Shown: one piece after another, positions 2,823 through 8,797 of the stretch | Numbering within the stretch: position 1 is the stretch's first letter | Layout of the letters: each line of letters opens with the position of its first letter | NCBI GenBank assembly: GCA_016839055.1 | Contig: JAEKNX010000003.1 | Coordinates: forward strand, 372,001 to 436,000 | Reading direction: 5' to 3' | DNA: 64,000 nt | From: Spirochaetales bacterium | GTDB lineage: Bacteria; Spirochaetota; Spirochaetia; UBA9216 | Notes under the pieces: model-generated | Databases searched by the model: none | Seen by the model: the letters and a program-made list of their open reading frames with translations, nothing else | What the model was told of the DNA's origin: nothing | Made by a program: the position numbers and the translations under genes

Positions 2823-4046
2823 TCAGCTGATTTCCCGTCTAACAAGAGCGGATAGACGTTCAATCCCCTCCCTAATCTCTGCAATACCGGGATAGGAAAA
2901 ATTAAGCCGGATCTCATTATACCGTTTTTTTCCTGCAGGATAGAACTGACTGCCCGGGATAAAGGCCACCTTTTCCCCAATAGCAAGGTCAAACATCCTG
3001 TCGGTATTTATCTCTTCGGGGAGGGTCAACCATATGAACATACCCCCTTCAGGCTCCGTCCAGCTAATGCCGGGAGGCATCAGGAGGGAGAGGGTCTCAA
3101 GCATAGCATCGCGTTTAGGCCGGTAGAGTTCGATGATCCGCTCGATATGGGGATGCATCAGCCCCTCCCCGATGAAACGTGCGGTCACCCTCTGGGTGAT
3201 GCAGTCAGGACTAACCGTTGATTTCTGAGCCCATTTGACCATGGGTTCGATAATCTTCTCCGGACCCGCGGCAAATCCCAGCCGGAGACCGGGACCGAGG
3301 ATCTTGGAGAAGGACTTTACAATCGTTACCAGCTCATCGTCCCCGAATTCTACCCTGGCCAGCTCCCAGAGGGTGGGAATCCTCACCCCGCTGTAACGAA
3401 GCTCCCGGTAGGGCTGGTCCTCCAGCACCGGGATGTCATACCGCAGGGCAGTCCGGAGGATCTCCCTGCGCCGCGCAAGATCCATGGATCGGCCGCTGGG
3501 GTTCTGAAACTCAGGGATTAGATACAGGAATTTAACCGGAGCGCTACTCCGGGTAAGATCCCGAAGGGTCTCATCCAGCCGGTCGGGCCGCATTCCCAGC
3601 TCATCCATCTCCACACCGATCATCCTTGCCCCGCAGGCCTGCATCGCAGCGATAGATCCTGGAAAGCCCGGAGACTCACAGACGATGATATCATCGGGGC
3701 TAATCAGTGTCCGAAGGTAATAATAAATGCCGTTCGTCGAACCGATGGTGATCATCAGCTGATCATCGGGAAGCCAGGGAACCTCCTCAAAATTCTTAAG
3801 TGCCTCTTTAAGCTTCACATCACCTTCGGAGGCCCCGTACTGGAGGACATCATCCCCGGTCTCACTTATAACCTCATGAAAAAGCCGGGCCAGGGTCTCT
3901 TTCGGAAAAGAGGCGGGATCCGGCAGGCCCCCGGCAAAGGAGATCATCCCGGGAACACCCCGGGTAACTTTGAGAATCTGCCGTATAAACGAATGTTCCA
4001 TGGCAGCGGTCTGCGGGGTATATAACTTCTCATAGGATCGCAGCAT
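2823..4046 (-). CDS. PLP aminotransferase, class I/II (LysN-like)
   Basis: This 407-residue enzyme is a fold-type I aminotransferase of the 2-aminoadipate/multi-substrate branch that also supplies the C-terminal domain of MocR regulators. Evidence includes the N-terminal ISFAGGLPDPASFP, the GASEGDVKLKEAL segment, ESPGFPGS, the PEFQNPSGR block that holds the cofactor ring, and the lysine that would form the Schiff base in IVKSFSKILGPGLRLGF. The C-terminal PEGGMFIWLTLP is also typical. It has no DNA-binding domain. It is the last gene of a same-strand run lrp, panB, unknown, aminotransferase, with 11 bases to the preceding gene. Substrate cannot be read from sequence; branched-chain or aromatic amino acids and 2-aminoadipate are the usual candidates. 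Confidence 0.88.
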   Translation of the reverse strand: MLRSYEKLYTPQTAAMEHSFIRQILKVTRGVPGMISFAGGLPDPASFPKETLARLFHEVISETGDDVLQYGASEGDVKLKEALKNFEEVPWLPDDQLMITIGSTNGIYYYLRTLISPDDIIVCESPGFPGSIAAMQACGARMIGVEMDELGMRPDRLDETLRDLTRSSAPVKFLYLIPEFQNPSGRSMDLARRREILRTALRYDIPVLEDQPYRELRYSGVRIPTLWELARVEFGDDELVTIVKSFSKILGPGLRLGFAAGPEKIIEPMVKWAQKSTVSPDCITQRVTARFIGEGLMHPHIERIIELYRPKRDAMLETLSLLMPPGISWTEPEGGMFIWLTLPEEINTDRMFDLAIGEKVAFIPGSQFYPAGKKRYNEIRLNFSYPGIAEIREGIERLSALVRREIS

Positions 4047-4057
4047 TACCTAGGCCC

Positions 4058-5341
4058 TTACTTATGCAGATTGGAGGCTGGAACTACCCCGATCCCGGCC
4101 CGGGTAAGGGCGTCGGCGGTCAGGTTCAGGGAATCATGCTTGTCCAGGTAGCTGCGCTCCATAGACTGCATAAGCCCCGCTGAGAGAATATCTGCCTTGG
4201 GGGTGAAATAATCGAGAATATCCGAGGGATGCTCCCGGGTCTTTTCAACCTCTACCTCTCCGCCTTCATGTTTTGCAGAAATATTGGGCACCCGGTCCGC
4301 GATTTCGACCAGTTCCTCACGCCTGTTATACGGCTGCCTGACAATCGACTTCCATGTTTCGGTTATGTGGTGCTCGAAGCGGACTACATCGGTCAGCCCA
4401 AGGGCGCCGCGGATGGCATTACTTGCAAGGATGGTATCGTTATTCACCGAGTTTGAATAATTAAATCCAATCAGACTGGTTGTGCCGTCATCCCGTGAAA
4501 ACAGCCGGGCACCCATCAGGGTCCAAAGAACGGCGAAAGGATTGTCGTTACCCATAAACACGGATATCTTGAACTCATTGTCAATTCCTAGCTTGTGAAG
4601 CATGTAGCCGACAAATATCGTGCCGGGATTGATATTAAGCACCTGTCTTATGCCGTAGGTAGTGTAATAGTGGAGGTATTCATCAGCCCATTTCAGGGGA
4701 TAATCATTGGGTTCCCCCACCCCTCCGAAGTAGCCGGTTATTGTATCCGGACCTCCAAGATGTACATTGGAACCGTCGGTTCCCTTCGTGTCCAGGGTCT
4801 CAACATAACTGGCTCCGACTATCTGCATGGCCGCGGCCACCGCCAGGATGTCGCCATTATCCTGTGCCTGCTCCTTCATGTTCCGCACCCGGATAAACCT
4901 GCCCGGCATCAGCTGCCGTTTTTCGATTGCCTGCCTGGCCTGGGTTATAAGCCAGGGAAAATACTGGAGGGCCGAAATCTCCAGTGTAACCGCGGTCTTT
5001 TCATTAAAGCTCATTCGGGCAGCCTTCTTACCCAGAATATTCTTCCGGTATTCATCAAGGCTGACGAAGGCTCCCGCCTCCTTCTGCTCGGTCAGCCAAT
5101 CCAGATCCGCTAGATAAGGCGAGTCCATCTCCTTGAGCCGGCGGACAAGGTTTTCCAGGCGGCGGGCTTCGGCCGCCTTTCGGTTAATCTCCTCTGGTCC
5201 GCCGTATTTACTGACAACTTCAAGAAGTCCGCTGATTAATTCGTTCTGCGGATCAAGCAGAAAGGCGTTTATTTCATCCACCCGGGAAACATCTATCTTA
5301 AGACGCTGCCGCAGGTTATTCATATCACTTTTTTCGGACAT
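4058..5341 (-). CDS. Conserved protein of unknown function, 427 residues
   Basis: I do not recognise this family. It is a soluble protein with a helical, charged first 120 residues and a glycine- and asparagine-rich middle that looks like an enzyme core: DNGDILAVAAAMQIVGASY, LGGPDTITGYFGGVGEP, NINPGTIFVGYML and VFMGNDNPFAVLW. Repeated conserved-looking Asp/Asn/Gly turns suggest an alpha/beta barrel, but I see no cobalamin (DxHxxG), radical-SAM or Rossmann motif. It sits 9 bases after panB and 11 bases before the aminotransferase, so the three are almost certainly one transcript. The setting points to a step in amino-acid or 2-oxoacid metabolism. The likely initiator is the ATG at the 5341 end, preceded by AGGAGGGC. 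Confidence 0.8.
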   Translation of the reverse strand: MSEKSDMNNLRQRLKIDVSRVDEINAFLLDPQNELISGLLEVVSKYGGPEEINRKAAEARRLENLVRRLKEMDSPYLADLDWLTEQKEAGAFVSLDEYRKNILGKKAARMSFNEKTAVTLEISALQYFPWLITQARQAIEKRQLMPGRFIRVRNMKEQAQDNGDILAVAAAMQIVGASYVETLDTKGTDGSNVHLGGPDTITGYFGGVGEPNDYPLKWADEYLHYYTTYGIRQVLNINPGTIFVGYMLHKLGIDNEFKISVFMGNDNPFAVLWTLMGARLFSRDDGTTSLIGFNYSNSVNNDTILASNAIRGALGLTDVVRFEHHITETWKSIVRQPYNRREELVEIADRVPNISAKHEGGEVEVEKTREHPSDILDYFTPKADILSAGLMQSMERSYLDKHDSLNLTADALTRAGIGVVPASNLHK

Positions 5342-5350
5342 ACTGCCCTC

Positions 5351-6208
5351 CTATTTATATTCCCTGATAAGGTCCTCGAGTTTTTCCTCTTCTCCGGAGA
5401 TCATGTGATAACAATGTTCGTCCGAAGGAAAGGAACCGGATTTAACATCGGAAACATACTCTTTCATCGCTTTGGTTACCGTCTCAGCCACATTGGCATA
5501 TTTCTTCACAAATTTCGGAGTGAAGGCGGTAAACTGTCCGATTAGATCGGAAACAATGAGCAGCTGCCCGTCACAGCCTGGGCCGGCCCCTATTGAAAGG
5601 ACGGGAATCTTCAGTTTCCGGGCGATGAATCCGGCAACCTCCGGCGGAACCGCCTCGATGAGCAGCATCTGGGCCCCGGCCTCTTCGATGGCCAGGGCGT
5701 CCTCTATAACCATCCTGGCCGATTCCACCGTCCGCCCCTGGGCCTTGTGACCGCCCATCTGACCGGAGCTCTGGGGAGTCAGGCCGATATGGCCTATCAC
5801 CACTATCCCCGCATCCAGGATAGCTTTAATCCGGGAAATTATGCGGGTGCCGCCCTCCAGTTTGATGGCGTCGACTCCGCCTTCTTTCAGAAAACGGACG
5901 GCATTCCGCACGGCGTCTTCATCAGAAACCTGATAGCTTCCCAAGGGCATATCACCCACGACGAAGGTATTGGGTGCCGCCCTGCGCACGGCTTCACAAT
6001 GAACAATGCACTGATCCATTGTTACAGGGATTGTTCCTGAATAGCCGTAGACACACATTCCCAGCGAGTCACCGACCAGGATCATCTCCATACCGGCGGC
6101 CTCGGCAAACTGTGCCGTGGGGTAATCGTAGGAAGTGAGCCAGGCAATTTTCCGTCCCTCGGCCTTCATTTTGTAGAACTCATGCAGCATCAATTTCTTT
6201 TTGGACAT
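5351..6208 (-). CDS. panB: 3-methyl-2-oxobutanoate hydroxymethyltransferase-like
   Basis: PanB transfers a one-carbon unit from methylene-tetrahydrofolate to 2-oxoisovalerate to give ketopantoate. The 285-residue protein matches the family in length and order of motifs: WLTSYDYPTAQFAEAAGM, the metal-binding VGDSLGM, KLEGG, GHIGLTPQS, the catalytic Glu context LLIEAVPPEVA, and SIGAGPGCDGQLLI. An AAGGAGG site stands ahead of the ATG. No panC, panD or panE is nearby; instead it lies between an Lrp-type regulator and an unknown gene plus an aminotransferase. It may therefore supply pantoate synthesis from a scattered pathway, or it may be a recruited PanB homologue acting in amino-acid breakdown. 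Family assignment is firm, pathway is not. Confidence 0.9.
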   Translation of the reverse strand: MSKKKLMLHEFYKMKAEGRKIAWLTSYDYPTAQFAEAAGMEMILVGDSLGMCVYGYSGTIPVTMDQCIVHCEAVRRAAPNTFVVGDMPLGSYQVSDEDAVRNAVRFLKEGGVDAIKLEGGTRIISRIKAILDAGIVVIGHIGLTPQSSGQMGGHKAQGRTVESARMVIEDALAIEEAGAQMLLIEAVPPEVAGFIARKLKIPVLSIGAGPGCDGQLLIVSDLIGQFTAFTPKFVKKYANVAETVTKAMKEYVSDVKSGSFPSDEHCYHMISGEEEKLEDLIREYK

Positions 6209-6282
6209 AAGGTCCTCCTTGATTCAAATGAGTTTCCTGTTTTTGTTGAAAGGCGTTGGATGATTTTCCGTCAGGTTTTTAT

Positions 6283-6762
6283 TTACAGGCCCGAATCACC
6301 GGCCGAATAAATCGGCCAGCCTTCATCGGGCTTGATTTCGGAAAAAACAGCCAGGGTCTCGGATGTTCCGAAACTAGGCAGCGAGGCAATATCGGTTTTG
6401 ACAAGCTCTCCCAGCTTCTTCAGATCGGAAGCCGCGACATGGAGCATGTAATCAAATCGTCCGGTTGTATGGTAGCATGCCCGGACCTCTGCGAGATGAC
6501 GGATACCATCTTCAAACTCATGGATGCCGTGAGCATCATGATGATTAAGGGTGACGGCAATGAAGGCCTGGATGTGCAGCCCTAACTTTTCCGGATCAAT
6601 TATGGCCCGGTACCCCCGGATCACCCCCTGGTCCTCCAGGCGGCGAACCCGTTCGAGCATTGTAGACTGTGCAACCCCCAACTCCCGCGCGAGTTCAGTC
6701 TGTTTCTTCCGCGCGTTGGCCTGCAGGGACGCAAGTATCTTTAAATCAAGATTATCCGGCAT
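6283..6762 (-). CDS. Lrp/AsnC-family transcriptional regulator
   Basis: This 159-residue protein has the usual Lrp layout: an N-terminal helix-turn-helix (residues about 5-60; DLKILASLQANARKKQTELA then GVAQSTMLERVRRLEDQGVI) and a C-terminal RAM ligand-binding domain beginning near residue 68 with HIQAFIAVTL and continuing to the VRACYHTTGRFDYMLHV strand pair. Lrp proteins respond to amino acids and form octamers. It is the first gene of the run lrp-panB-unknown-aminotransferase, with a 74-base gap to panB that could hold a second promoter. The context suggests that it senses the amino acid handled by the operon. A GAGG site stands ahead of the ATG. Confidence 0.9.
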   Translation of the reverse strand: MPDNLDLKILASLQANARKKQTELARELGVAQSTMLERVRRLEDQGVIRGYRAIIDPEKLGLHIQAFIAVTLNHHDAHGIHEFEDGIRHLAEVRACYHTTGRFDYMLHVAASDLKKLGELVKTDIASLPSFGTSETLAVFSEIKPDEGWPIYSAGDSGL

Positions 6763-6943
6763 ACAACCTCAAATACATTAACTTTCAGGTAATTACCGAT
6801 ATTATTTCGGCCAAACTGCTATTACTCCGAAACAATATCGCTCTAAGATAATTATAGGCGGATAGTTTTCAGCTGTCAATTTTTTTATAAAGAACCCGGC
6901 AATTCTGAATTTGGCTGACACAACAGTAAATGAGCATTATCTG

Positions 6944-7741
6944 TCAGAAATTGTATTTACACAGATCAATTATTGCAAACCTGTTATCGACTCCAATCTT
7001 ATTGCAGATATTGTAAAGATGCAGTTTGACTGTTGATTCGGCAAGATCAAGACGCTCGGCTATTTCTCTGTTACTCGCCTTATAAATAGTCAGAGTCTTG
7101 ATAACCCTCGTCTCAGCCGGAGAAATATTTGAAGCCTTGAGATCATACGGCTTTTTCCCGTCTTCGATCTCTTCCAGCTGAGACGCAAGATTATTATAGT
7201 TTGTCTTAAGGGAGTAGTTTTCTTTTTTCAGCTCATTCTGCTGTGAGATCATATCCCGCCAGATAATCAGAAGAATACTAATCAGAAATAAGGTAAAAAA
7301 GAGAGTAGCAAAACCTTTATAGATATGCTCGCCGGAATGGATATATGAGGAGAATTGGGATAATAAAACTATATATATCAGCATTAGGCCGTTTTTAGTC
7401 TTTTTATACTTATCAAGAAAACCATAATGACGCATCACAAGCCAGGCAACCAGAAATAAACTGGGACCGTAAAAATGCTCCGCCACCTGAATGATATTGG
7501 AAGTGCCGATTCCCAAAAAGACTATAATCTGCATAATCTTCAAGAATATACTTTCGACAAAGATACTTATTACGAACGGGATTAAAGACGGTAAAAGTAC
7601 ATACACTGTCAGGCTCTTAATTGCATATGCAAAATCCACCCTGTTTGTCCGATTGATAATATTTGTTATCACTACTAATAATCCGAGGACGCTTATCAGC
7701 AATCCTATTCTCTTCTGAACCGTTCCTATATACTTCTGCAA
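6944..7741 (-). CDS. Membrane-anchored LuxR-type regulator
   Basis: The N-terminal two-thirds of this 265-residue protein is membrane: about five to six hydrophobic segments between residues 10 and 165 (for example LLISVLGLLVVITNI, IFLGIGTSNIIQVAEHFYG, LFFTLFLISILLIIW). A short coiled coil follows (about 170-195), then a LuxR-type helix-turn-helix from about 205: SPAETRVIKTL, KASNREIAERLDLAESTVK and the C-terminal IGVDNRFAIIDL. It resembles orphan membrane LuxR regulators that sense a signal in the envelope. It begins 12 bases after copy B of the unknown 172-residue gene, with a GAGGGGGC site, so the two are probably co-transcribed. Confidence 0.85.
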   Translation of the reverse strand: MQKYIGTVQKRIGLLISVLGLLVVITNIINRTNRVDFAYAIKSLTVYVLLPSLIPFVISIFVESIFLKIMQIIVFLGIGTSNIIQVAEHFYGPSLFLVAWLVMRHYGFLDKYKKTKNGLMLIYIVLLSQFSSYIHSGEHIYKGFATLFFTLFLISILLIIWRDMISQQNELKKENYSLKTNYNNLASQLEEIEDGKKPYDLKASNISPAETRVIKTLTIYKASNREIAERLDLAESTVKLHLYNICNKIGVDNRFAIIDLCKYNF

Positions 7742-7753
7742 CTTGTGCCCCCT

Positions 7754-8272
7754 CTAATCATCCCAAAGACCTTTAAGCGCGTCTTCAGTTACGTATAACG
7801 CAGAAATCTTCGATGAAATGTTTTCTTCAATGTTTTTAATTATTTTTTCAGATAACTCGGGGTAGCTCCATTTTCCTTCGGCTACGGGATTGTATTTACC
7901 TATGGCCAGATCTTCATCCGCGCCGTTATTATAATTGGAAATCATATTCAGGGCTATCAAATTCATACAACATTGAATAACTTTTTCATCTCCGCCTTTA
8001 AAATTACTTATCGGAAGAAGTCTGGAGTAAAGATCCTCGTCATCCTCGGGTTTATGAAAATAAATTTCCTTCGCCGAATCGTCGATCGACATAATATAAA
8101 CAGACAGATGAGTATAGGAGGTTTCCTCGGCCTTATCGCAGCCGGATAGATATGGTACTGCCGCTATCAGCCTTGCCATTTTGCAGTTTTCCAGCCATTC
8201 GGTTTGTTTAATACCGAAATTGAATACTGTCCTGACCCTGCTCGAAACTTTTACCCACTGTTCTTTTGTCAT
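7754..8272 (-). CDS. Unknown 172-residue protein, copy B
   Basis: Full-length paralogue of the protein at 379-897, about 80% identical with no gaps. Family unknown to me; no signal peptide or membrane segment. Differences are mostly conservative in the core (for example I/V, L/I, F/Y) and cluster in the last 20 residues, which fits two maintained genes and not a recent exact copy. The initiator ATG follows AAAAGGAGCACC. The gene is followed after 12 bases by the membrane LuxR-type regulator, the only functional hint: this family member may be the partner or modulator of that regulator. Its leader holds a hairpin with the same stem and position as in copy A. Confidence 0.82.
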   Translation of the reverse strand: MTKEQWVKVSSRVRTVFNFGIKQTEWLENCKMARLIAAVPYLSGCDKAEETSYTHLSVYIMSIDDSAKEIYFHKPEDDEDLYSRLLPISNFKGGDEKVIQCCMNLIALNMISNYNNGADEDLAIGKYNPVAEGKWSYPELSEKIIKNIEENISSKISALYVTEDALKGLWDD

Positions 8273-8364
8273 AAGGTGCTCCTTTTAAATATTATTCATC
8301 TATTTTTGGCTTCATATCTTACAATGAAAGACTGCTCGAAACAATGTGTTTTGCTGGGAATATA

Positions 8365-8400
8365 AAAAAATCACCCGAAAGAGAACCATCTCCGGGTGAT
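8365..8400 (-). terminator. Leader hairpin with T-run (attenuator-like), copy B
   Basis: On the minus strand ATCACCCGGAG pairs with CTC and CGGGTGAT (8370-8400), followed by a run of seven T. The stem is the same as at 253-281, while the loop differs (ATGGTT plus TTT here, TTGGGC plus G there). The distance to the gene start is again 98 bases. Stem kept and loop changed indicates selection on the RNA structure. Confidence 0.6.
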
Positions 8401-8429
8401 AAATTAAATAATGCTTTTTAAATTACTGG

Positions 8430-8516
8430 TTATAATAATCTATTTTTAGATACTTTCTTATTACAATGAACTTGATTACATAAAAGCATTTTACACTCTG
8501 CGGCTGAAAACACCAT
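8430..8516 (-). other. Possible 28-codon leader ORF, copy B
   Basis: Counterpart of the 17-codon frame at 141-194; begins MVFSAAECKMLL and has three cysteines. No clear ribosome binding site. Listed because start, first three residues and ECK are shared between copies; could be chance. Confidence 0.2.
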
Positions 8517-8557
8517 ATAACTTTAGTATTAATATGAACTCAGAGCTGGTTAAAATA

Positions 8558-8622
8558 CCTTTTCCTGTCCTTTTCCTGTCCTTTTCCTGTCCTTTTCCTG
8601 TCCTTTTCCTGTCCTTTTCCTT
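8558..8622. repeat. Tandem 11-bp repeat (CCTTTTCCTGT), five copies plus a partial sixth
   Basis: Five exact head-to-tail units of CCTTTTCCTGT are followed by a degenerate sixth. The unit length is not a multiple of three, so slippage would shift any frame running through it. The 69-codon open frame across it is of low complexity and unsupported. The array lies about 20 bases outside the edge of the inverted duplication and 175 bases upstream of the methyltransferase-like gene; the rest of 8537-8791 shows nothing recognisable. Confidence 0.9.
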
Positions 8623-8797
8623 AGGGAAGTTCTTTTCGTCCTTCACGGAGGTTGGGAAAATAACGAGATTAAAAATCGCAAAGCTCCTGTCGCCATTGAA
8701 CGGTTTGAGAACGTTGTGGCGGATCAGTAATGAGTTCTTTTAGCTTTTCTATAGGGGCCTTGTTTTTAATATATACAATTTATGTTAATATTTGGAC

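Follow-up and report, generated by a model that had tools for sequence, protein, structure and literature searches.

The systems closest to the one described here come from metabolic engineering, mammalian homoserine metabolism and vitamin synthesis. Bouzon et al. in 2017 are said to have reported an aldolase/transaminase route through 4-hydroxy-2-oxobutanoate (HOB) or a synthetic homoserine cycle. In two engineering papers, HOB is called non-native or non-natural, in one of them within synthetic one-carbon (C1) cycles (PMC8879981, PMC12709889). The title of Dekker et al. 1971, as cited in PMC10992282, ties mammalian L-homoserine metabolism to a 2-keto-4-hydroxybutyrate aldolase. For the ketopantoate hydroxymethyltransferase (PanB) of E. 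coli, the variants I202A, I212A and V214G are described in a review (PMC7610986) as widening the substrate range. Here we analyze a putative operon of four genes in a Spirochaetales bacterium (contig JAEKNX010000003.1, positions 372,001 to 436,000; this 64,000-nucleotide (nt) stretch is called the window, and unprefixed coordinates are positions in it). The operon combines a panB gene and an aminotransferase gene with a gene for a 427-residue protein, which we named U427; we use PanB2 for the group of PanBs linked to U427. With moderate confidence, we consider the operon a variant of homoserine/C1 metabolism that holds an enzyme family for which we found no description. A literature search returned no account of U427 or of the U427/PanB2 gene set, subscription papers lying outside its coverage.

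Results

Comparison of the open reading frames (ORFs) revealed that the four genes lie on the minus strand in the order lrp, panB, U427 and aminotransferase. From their coordinates, the gaps are 74 bp between lrp and panB, 9 bp between panB and U427, and 11 bp between U427 and the aminotransferase gene. The row of three genes behind lrp, with gaps of 9–11 bases, is thus just as a first-pass annotation made from the sequence had described it, all four ORFs included. Of the four other genomes in the window's phylum found with U427, three again have panB next to it, as do roughly half of the 80 loci surveyed in other genomes, and a recurrence of this kind is not a matter of chance.

The U427 of the window (4058..5341, minus strand, 427 amino acids (aa)) had no Pfam or NCBIfam match at E ≤ 1. 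When 54 members were compared singly with Pfam, the best E value was 0.028 and the matches were scattered over 12 families, none of them in more than four members; sequence and profile searches of the PDB with 1, 5 and 54 rows gave no match. Membership in a known family was ruled out by these Pfam, NCBIfam and PDB sequence searches, in line with the earlier description of an unknown protein without a recognized motif. A suspected kinship with the B12-dependent lysine and ornithine aminomutases was not borne out either: HHalign comparison of U427 with KamD and OraE gave probabilities of at most 0.5%, with a U427 profile that is shallow (Neff 2.0) and therefore of low power. Nothing exceeded 0.5% with the sets for PanB, MetF, aminotransferase, the aldehyde oxidizer AOR, homoserine dehydrogenase (HSD), PorA, glutamate dehydrogenase (GDH), GS and MetE-like proteins.

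An AlphaFold2 model of U427 has a helical N-terminus followed by an eight-stranded barrel (mean predicted local distance difference test (pLDDT) 90.5, predicted template modelling score (pTM) 0.89), and the predicted fold class, modelled confidently, is a TIM barrel. Residues 185–209 are highly conserved and yet have pLDDT below 50 in this model. Active sites of barrel enzymes lie at the C-terminal ends of the strands, and 45 of the 88 U427 positions (out of 427) that are invariant among 54 sequences fall within the 104 positions at or just after those ends (P = 5e-10). In fold searches, barrels from many different families scored close together. The best Z was 12.4 for the full model, which a de novo designed barrel also reached, and 13.1 for the barrel alone, for which the designed barrel scored 12.6; Foldseek TM-scores were below 0.6 among the matches listed. 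Since the scores are tied across families and none is clear of the designed barrel, they speak to the fold class only. The comparison with alpha/beta barrels that had been suggested for this protein therefore yielded a barrel and singled out no family, and leads to glutamate mutase and DUF849/BKACE were dropped for the same closeness of scores. A scan of the 80 loci with a loose B12-binding motif found 13 scattered ORFs and no conserved partner; in the related loci L037 and L061 it picked up a mutase-small-subunit-like ORF 3–4 kb from U427.

At least 523 relatives of U427 were found by scanning GTDB contigs. The best 80 of these, which make up the surveyed loci, are 66–77% identical to U427 over essentially the full length, and come from metagenome-assembled genomes labelled Deltaproteobacteria, Desulfobacterales, Chloroflexi, Bipolaricaulota, Planctomycetota, Spirochaetales, Thermoplasmata and others. 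In the window's own phylum U427 is sparse: 5 of 392 genomes have it, counting that of the window, and a further match, in G348, proved to be a spurious, unrelated ORF. Among the genomes sampled from other phyla, 25 of 194 in Thermoplasmatota and 8 of 247 in Thermodesulfobacteriota hold it, with matches that were strong or absent. Judged from its sequences, U427 is a widespread and strongly conserved putative enzyme of an undescribed family, distributed over many bacterial and at least two archaeal phyla.

Neighboring genes in the 80 loci were counted by tblastn; ORF picking undercounts PanB in GC-rich loci because long antisense ORFs displace the real gene. A PanB2 at least 55% identical to the window's was present in 42 loci, in 38 of them within 400 bp and on the same strand, and a diverged PanB is adjacent to U427 in three more. 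Aminotransferases of the broad group were found in 24 loci, in 13 of which they are on the same strand and no more than 400 bp away. Among these 13, eight are 22–38% identical to the window's and five 65–68%, the latter being the five loci of the 80 in which a close orthologue follows U427. Less frequent neighbors were an Lrp-like gene (13 loci, 33–67% identity), a CBS-domain GDH-like protein (six, domains checked in one), MetF (five) and formate-tetrahydrofolate ligase (four). A MetE-like gene in three loci was a weak lead that looks like lineage synteny. Glutamate/leucine-dehydrogenase-like proteins of ~640 aa are encoded in L018 (11383-13341, with C-terminal CBS domains), L024, L025, L072, L075 and L081, near U427 genes at which no close aminotransferase was seen. 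In L005, from genome G003 of the window's phylum, a gene of the Beta_elim_lyase family (436-1479) is convergent with U427 at a distance of 12 bp; we take this family to be that of threonine aldolase.

An HSD gene lies within 400 bp downstream of U427 in 15 of the 80 loci, and HSD and PanB2 were never found together in any of the 80 within the DNA stretches examined. Fourteen of the 15 loci are from Thermoplasmatota, and in these AOR follows, ~1.1 kb beyond U427. The fifteenth, L052, is on a bacterial chromosome and has the order Lrp, aminotransferase, U427, HSD and aldehyde dehydrogenase (ALDH). We also sampled a separate set of 26 Thermoplasmatota loci, some of them from the same genomes; HSD is directly downstream of U427 in 22, and an ALDH 59–63% identical to that of L052 follows HSD in three of these genomes (family checked in one). 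The U427 tree places L052 within a part made up of PanB2-linked bacteria, which indicates that the HSD partner arose at least twice.

Whole-genome comparisons showed a similar association. HSD was found in 22 of 23 Thermoplasmatota with U427 versus 4 of 20 without (P = 5e-7; 2e-6 without three pre-chosen genomes), while a threonine synthase (ThrC) passing its cut-off was detected in 3 of the 23 with U427 and 4 of the 20 without; incomplete assemblies weaken single cases among these absences. Because HSD tracks U427 while ThrC was mostly not found, this HSD apparently does not serve the textbook threonine pathway in most of these genomes. One archaeal U427-linked HSD, from L059, scored 424 bits against the equivalog cut-off of 373 for PRK06270 and has both the TNKGP and GPGAG motifs. 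The U427-linked HSDs are split from those of 11 bacterial genomes by a fully supported branch, in a tree with long branches. That HSD is followed by AOR or, most tellingly, by ALDH implies a flow from homoserine to aspartate, that is, a probable catabolic direction.

A third kind of partner was found in L082, from an Undinarchaeales archaeon. There a single ORF (7084-8649), ending 33 bp before the U427 ORF, encodes an aldolase of the DHDPS family fused to a formaldehyde-activating enzyme (Fae). Both parts are over NCBIfam cut-offs, the Fae part (residues 361-517; TIGR03126 / PF08714) with 179.7 versus 118.05 bits. The aldolase part has an IKDSSG stretch, the lysine of which is presumably the Schiff-base residue. 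The fusion is possibly a formaldehyde-channelling enzyme.

The PanB2 of the window (5351..6208, minus strand, 285 aa) is a ketopantoate hydroxymethyltransferase paralogue that belongs to the PanB families PF02548 and TIGR00222 across its full length, and is over both curated NCBIfam cut-offs (348 versus 272 bits and 316 versus 207.6 bits). The residues at the E. coli PanB positions D45, S46, D84, K112, E114, H136 and E181, which we assume to have metal, substrate or catalytic roles, are identical in 39 PanB2 sequences and 20 other PanBs, counting rows that bear a residue (there is one gap at D45 and S46). In a tree of these 59 PanBs, all 39 U427-linked rows group together with a Shimodaira–Hasegawa-like approximate likelihood ratio test (SH-aLRT) value of 92. 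Within them, 34 rows including the window's group at 99, and L002, L003, L036, L084 and L087 form a second group at 100. The program counts two changes of linkage on this tree because L122, where a long antisense ORF likewise displaced the real gene, is labelled as unlinked; U427 lies directly behind L122. Identity to the window's PanB is 59–84% for 33 of the 38 other linked PanBs and 35–49% for the 20 unlinked ones, and the row most similar to each linked PanB is itself a linked one. By alignment and tree, PanB2 is a group separate from other PanBs with its predicted catalytic residues intact. It also differs at the positions that align with E. coli I212 and V214, where PanB2 has L in 37 of 39 and I in 39 of 39, respectively, versus V or I, and V, in the 20 other PanBs. 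These bulkier residues may mean that the substrate of PanB2 is a smaller 2-oxo acid.

The other PanBs were found in different surroundings. Eight of 18 unlinked genomic PanBs adjoin a PanE/ApbA-family gene, two adjoin folD and one (L101) adjoins PanC, and those beside panE or panC fall outside the U427-linked group; the window's panB has neither as neighbor. A U427-linked panB next to panC, which would have spoken for ordinary pantothenate synthesis, was therefore not encountered (panD was not searched for). The window's genome has a second PanB, of the canonical type, elsewhere. Following the suggestion to look for panC elsewhere in this genome, we found none, and PanC was also not found in four of five other searched genomes of the phylum. 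In the window's genome (L013, 1462-3238) and in a congener (L008, 1462-3237) an unlinked PanB is followed by folD within 0–1 bp; this pair, with PanC undetected, is possibly another one-carbon use of PanB.

We also surveyed PanB2 from its own side, in 247 Thermodesulfobacteriota genomes. PanB2-type genes (61–82% identity; next best 54%) are present in 19 and U427 in eight, and the two occur together in seven of those eight (P = 4e-8; 4e-7 when the centre genome, picked because it has the two, is left out). Sixteen stretches around PanB2-type genes were examined, of which L181, L183, L184 and L185 show no PanB gene call, again through displacement by antisense ORFs. Where U427 is not beside PanB2, an HSD-type gene adjoins it in four loci, and in another AOR lies in front; in L188 an iron-type alcohol dehydrogenase is located between PanB2 and the HSD-type gene. 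Two PanB2-linked HSDs are over the cut-off for PRK06813 (315–318 versus 286 bits) and below that for PRK06270. The genomes G730 and G807, in which HSD adjoins PanB2, have U427 elsewhere together with a second HSD of the other clade.

The first gene of the operon encodes an Lrp/AsnC-family regulator of 159 aa (6283..6762, minus strand; AsnC_trans_reg and HTH_24 over cut-off), which scores 103.5 bits against PRK11169, the NCBIfam Lrp, below the equivalog cut-off of 233, and which probably regulates the operon. Upstream of its ATG is a sigma-70-type promoter, TTGACA-17-TATAAT (6851..6879, minus strand), a consensus match at 12/12 positions, not a mapped start. The scan found 6 promoter-like sites versus 4.3 expected, and with a count so near expectation only the perfect score is of note. 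The last gene (2823..4046, minus strand) encodes a fold-type-I pyridoxal phosphate (PLP) aminotransferase of 407 aa, assigned by its PDB relatives to the 2-aminoadipate/kynurenine multi-substrate group. The best of these are 1x0m (“aminotransferase II homologue”), 3aov (PH0207) and 1wst (“multiple substrate aminotransferase”), and 2-aminoadipate and kynurenine aminotransferases come next.

The whole operon is flanked by a 547-nt inverted repeat (357-903 and 7748-8294; 84% complementary) that contains two paralogous 172-aa ORFs. Outside this repeat are a shorter, 72-nt inverted pair (121-192 and 8465-8536) and an array of an 11-bp tandem repeat (8547-8632, start-to-start spacing 11). The same contig of the window's genome encodes the alpha subunit of a lysine 5,6-aminomutase (G000:C8:3887-5410, L128), suggesting amino-acid fermentation.

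Discussion

We tentatively propose that the products of the operon form a catabolic pathway with homoserine at its centre, a reading that we regard as plausible, though short of probable. U427 would make homoserine (2-amino-4-hydroxybutyrate) or its 2-oxo acid from some precursor. The aminotransferase, or elsewhere the GDH-like protein, would turn homoserine into HOB, and PanB2 would then split HOB into pyruvate and methylene-tetrahydrofolate (methylene-THF) by the reverse of the ketopantoate hydroxymethyltransferase reaction. In place of this last step, the aldolase-Fae fusion would transfer the one-carbon unit to tetrahydromethanopterin, or HSD with AOR or ALDH would oxidize homoserine via aspartate semialdehyde to aspartate. 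The three modules look interchangeable beside U427, and homoserine and HOB are proposed because they are the simplest compounds that PanB2, aldolase-Fae and HSD with AOR/ALDH could all use. We infer every substrate and direction in this scheme from the genes, their families or lack of one, their linkages, the PanB2 group and the fold class.

The genomic partners of U427 are strong evidence in themselves and give unusually specific hints on the pathway; the link to homoserine is of moderate confidence, and any specific reaction of U427 of low confidence. Most likely U427 is a producer of homoserine or HOB. Threonine is a candidate substrate, being isomeric with homoserine and plausible as a feedstock, with S-, O- or N-substituted homoserines as alternatives. 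A far-reaching and rather improbable version is that U427 founds a new superfamily whose reaction shifts the hydroxyl between C3 and C4 and so interconverts L-threonine and L-homoserine, as part of a cross-domain route by which sediment microbes would split threonine to pyruvate and a one-carbon unit, or to aspartate. To our knowledge, neither such a hydroxyl-shift reaction nor such a family has a described counterpart.

The first-pass annotation had suggested an undescribed pathway joining a hydroxymethylation or its reverse to transamination, and in outline the partner genes (aminotransferase or GDH-like protein, HSD with an aldehyde oxidizer, aldolase-Fae) fit this idea, with a leaning to the reverse, i.e., cleavage. 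Of the amino-acid or 2-oxoacid chemistry that it envisaged, pyruvate and homoserine now appear favored as substrates, and the branched-chain amino acids less so.

Several observations weigh against a homoserine pathway built around U427 and PanB2. The aminotransferase is linked to U427 more weakly than PanB2 is, and 20 of the 80 loci have no PanB or HSD nearby (L082 is one of these). The SH-aLRT of 92 for the U427-linked PanBs is below the 95 mark, and five of them, at 43–49% identity, are no closer to the window's PanB than unlinked ones are. The aldolase part of the L082 fusion is over the dapA cut-off as well. L052 has kept an aminotransferase though HSD alone would dispose of homoserine, and U427 might on that account act at the level of the 2-oxo acid. 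Genome G371 holds U427 while its only PanB is canonical and elsewhere, and among the Thermodesulfobacteriota G783 has U427 and no listed PanB2, and 12 of the 19 PanB2-holding genomes lack U427. The HSD of L188 has AAKGP and an altered C-terminal glycine stretch in place of the usual TNKGP and GPGAG. In L180, L182 and L187, relatives of PanB2 lie with a DctM transporter and LarA-type, GlcD-like or D-threonate-kinase-like (sugar-acid-kinase) genes, and L183 and L184 have DctM genes too. Such loci, like those in which PanB2 occurs without U427, indicate that PanB2 need not always serve U427, and in L180, L182 and L187 a separate pathway for a C4 hydroxy acid is likely.

These same neighbors suggest a real but lesser possibility, that U427 acts on some other metabolite (aspartate semialdehyde, a C4 sugar acid or an S- or N-substituted homoserine) and that its link to homoserine is indirect. 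There is no homology information for U427 to argue otherwise, and the 20 loci with other neighbors fit such a role; recurrence of the same partner set independently in bacteria and archaea speaks against it. We consider it unlikely that the operon runs in the assimilatory direction, with PanB2 joining pyruvate and methylene-THF to HOB, the aminotransferase making homoserine, and U427 converting homoserine onward, e.g., to threonine, like the synthetic homoserine cycle. PanB and aminotransferase reactions are reversible, and three loci have formate-tetrahydrofolate ligase and MetF no more than 4 kb from U427. U427 could also replace ThrB/ThrC in the 20 of 23 U427-holding Thermoplasmatota that have no ThrC over the cut-off, 22 of the 23 having HSD. 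However, 16 of 20 Thermoplasmatota without U427 also have no ThrC over the cut-off, so that this absence is not specific, and the window's genome has its own ThrC and a separate HSD elsewhere. The AOR or ALDH behind HSD is a further point against assimilation, as ALDH runs essentially one way, towards the acid.

The two readings closest to the textbook role of PanB fare worse. In a branched-chain version, the aminotransferase would act on valine/2-oxoisovalerate, PanB2 on ketopantoate, and U427 on ketopantoate or a relative. The textbook PanB substrate is 2-oxoisovalerate, PanB2 is over the PanB cut-off, and the aminotransferase group is broad in specificity by the names of its PDB relatives. 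This version is nevertheless quite improbable, as HSD, the pyruvate-type aldolase-Fae and the larger residues in the PanB2 pocket all suggest a C4 skeleton without branches, and the window's genome has a second PanB of canonical type (12 of 26 other U427 genomes have two or more full PanBs). Pantothenate synthesis itself, with U427 as a non-homologous PanE or PanC acting after PanB2, would account for the genomes of the window's phylum in which PanC was not found. We hold it to be very improbable, because 12 of the 26 other genomes with U427 do have PanC, while in the congener G374 neither U427 nor PanC is present. In three archaea with records at chromosome level, moreover, U427 adjoins HSD and nothing at all matched PanB. 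Gene context thus argues against hydroxymethylation of 2-oxoisovalerate for pantothenate by PanB2.

If the catabolic homoserine pathway is correct, HOB, so far called non-natural in engineering papers, would be a regular microbial intermediate, and PanB would be a vitamin-synthesis enzyme co-opted for one-carbon catabolism. Synthetic C1 assimilation could then draw on PanB2 and the aldolase-Fae fusion as candidate enzymes. More generally, our data are a warning against reading every PanB as an enzyme of pantothenate synthesis.

Compared with known systems, PanB2 resembles ketopantoate hydroxymethyltransferase (PF02548 / TIGR00222) in cut-offs, full length and catalytic positions, and departs from it in being linked to U427, HSD or AOR and not to panE/panC, and in the L and I at the E. 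coli I212 and V214 sites. The HSD beside U427 is over the NCBIfam equivalog cut-off, as an aspartate-pathway homoserine dehydrogenase would be, yet lies beside AOR/ALDH and U427 and on its own side of the branch that separates it from those of 11 bacterial genomes. U427 shares its predicted fold class with TIM-barrel enzymes such as the glutamate mutase E chain, DUF849/BKACE, MTHFR and class II aldolases, but no sequence relationship was found with the PDB chains or the KamD, OraE and MetF sets compared. The title of the Dekker et al. 1971 paper identifies the mammalian enzyme as 2-keto-4-hydroxyglutarate aldolase and mentions no U427, PanB or HSD branch. Closest in chemistry are the synthetic homoserine cycle and the HOB aldolase/transaminase routes (PMC8879981, PMC12709889), which have in common with our scheme the aldol chemistry of pyruvate, C1 and HOB and a homoserine aminotransferase; what we propose here differs in being a natural operon, with PanB2 or aldolase-Fae, plus U427.

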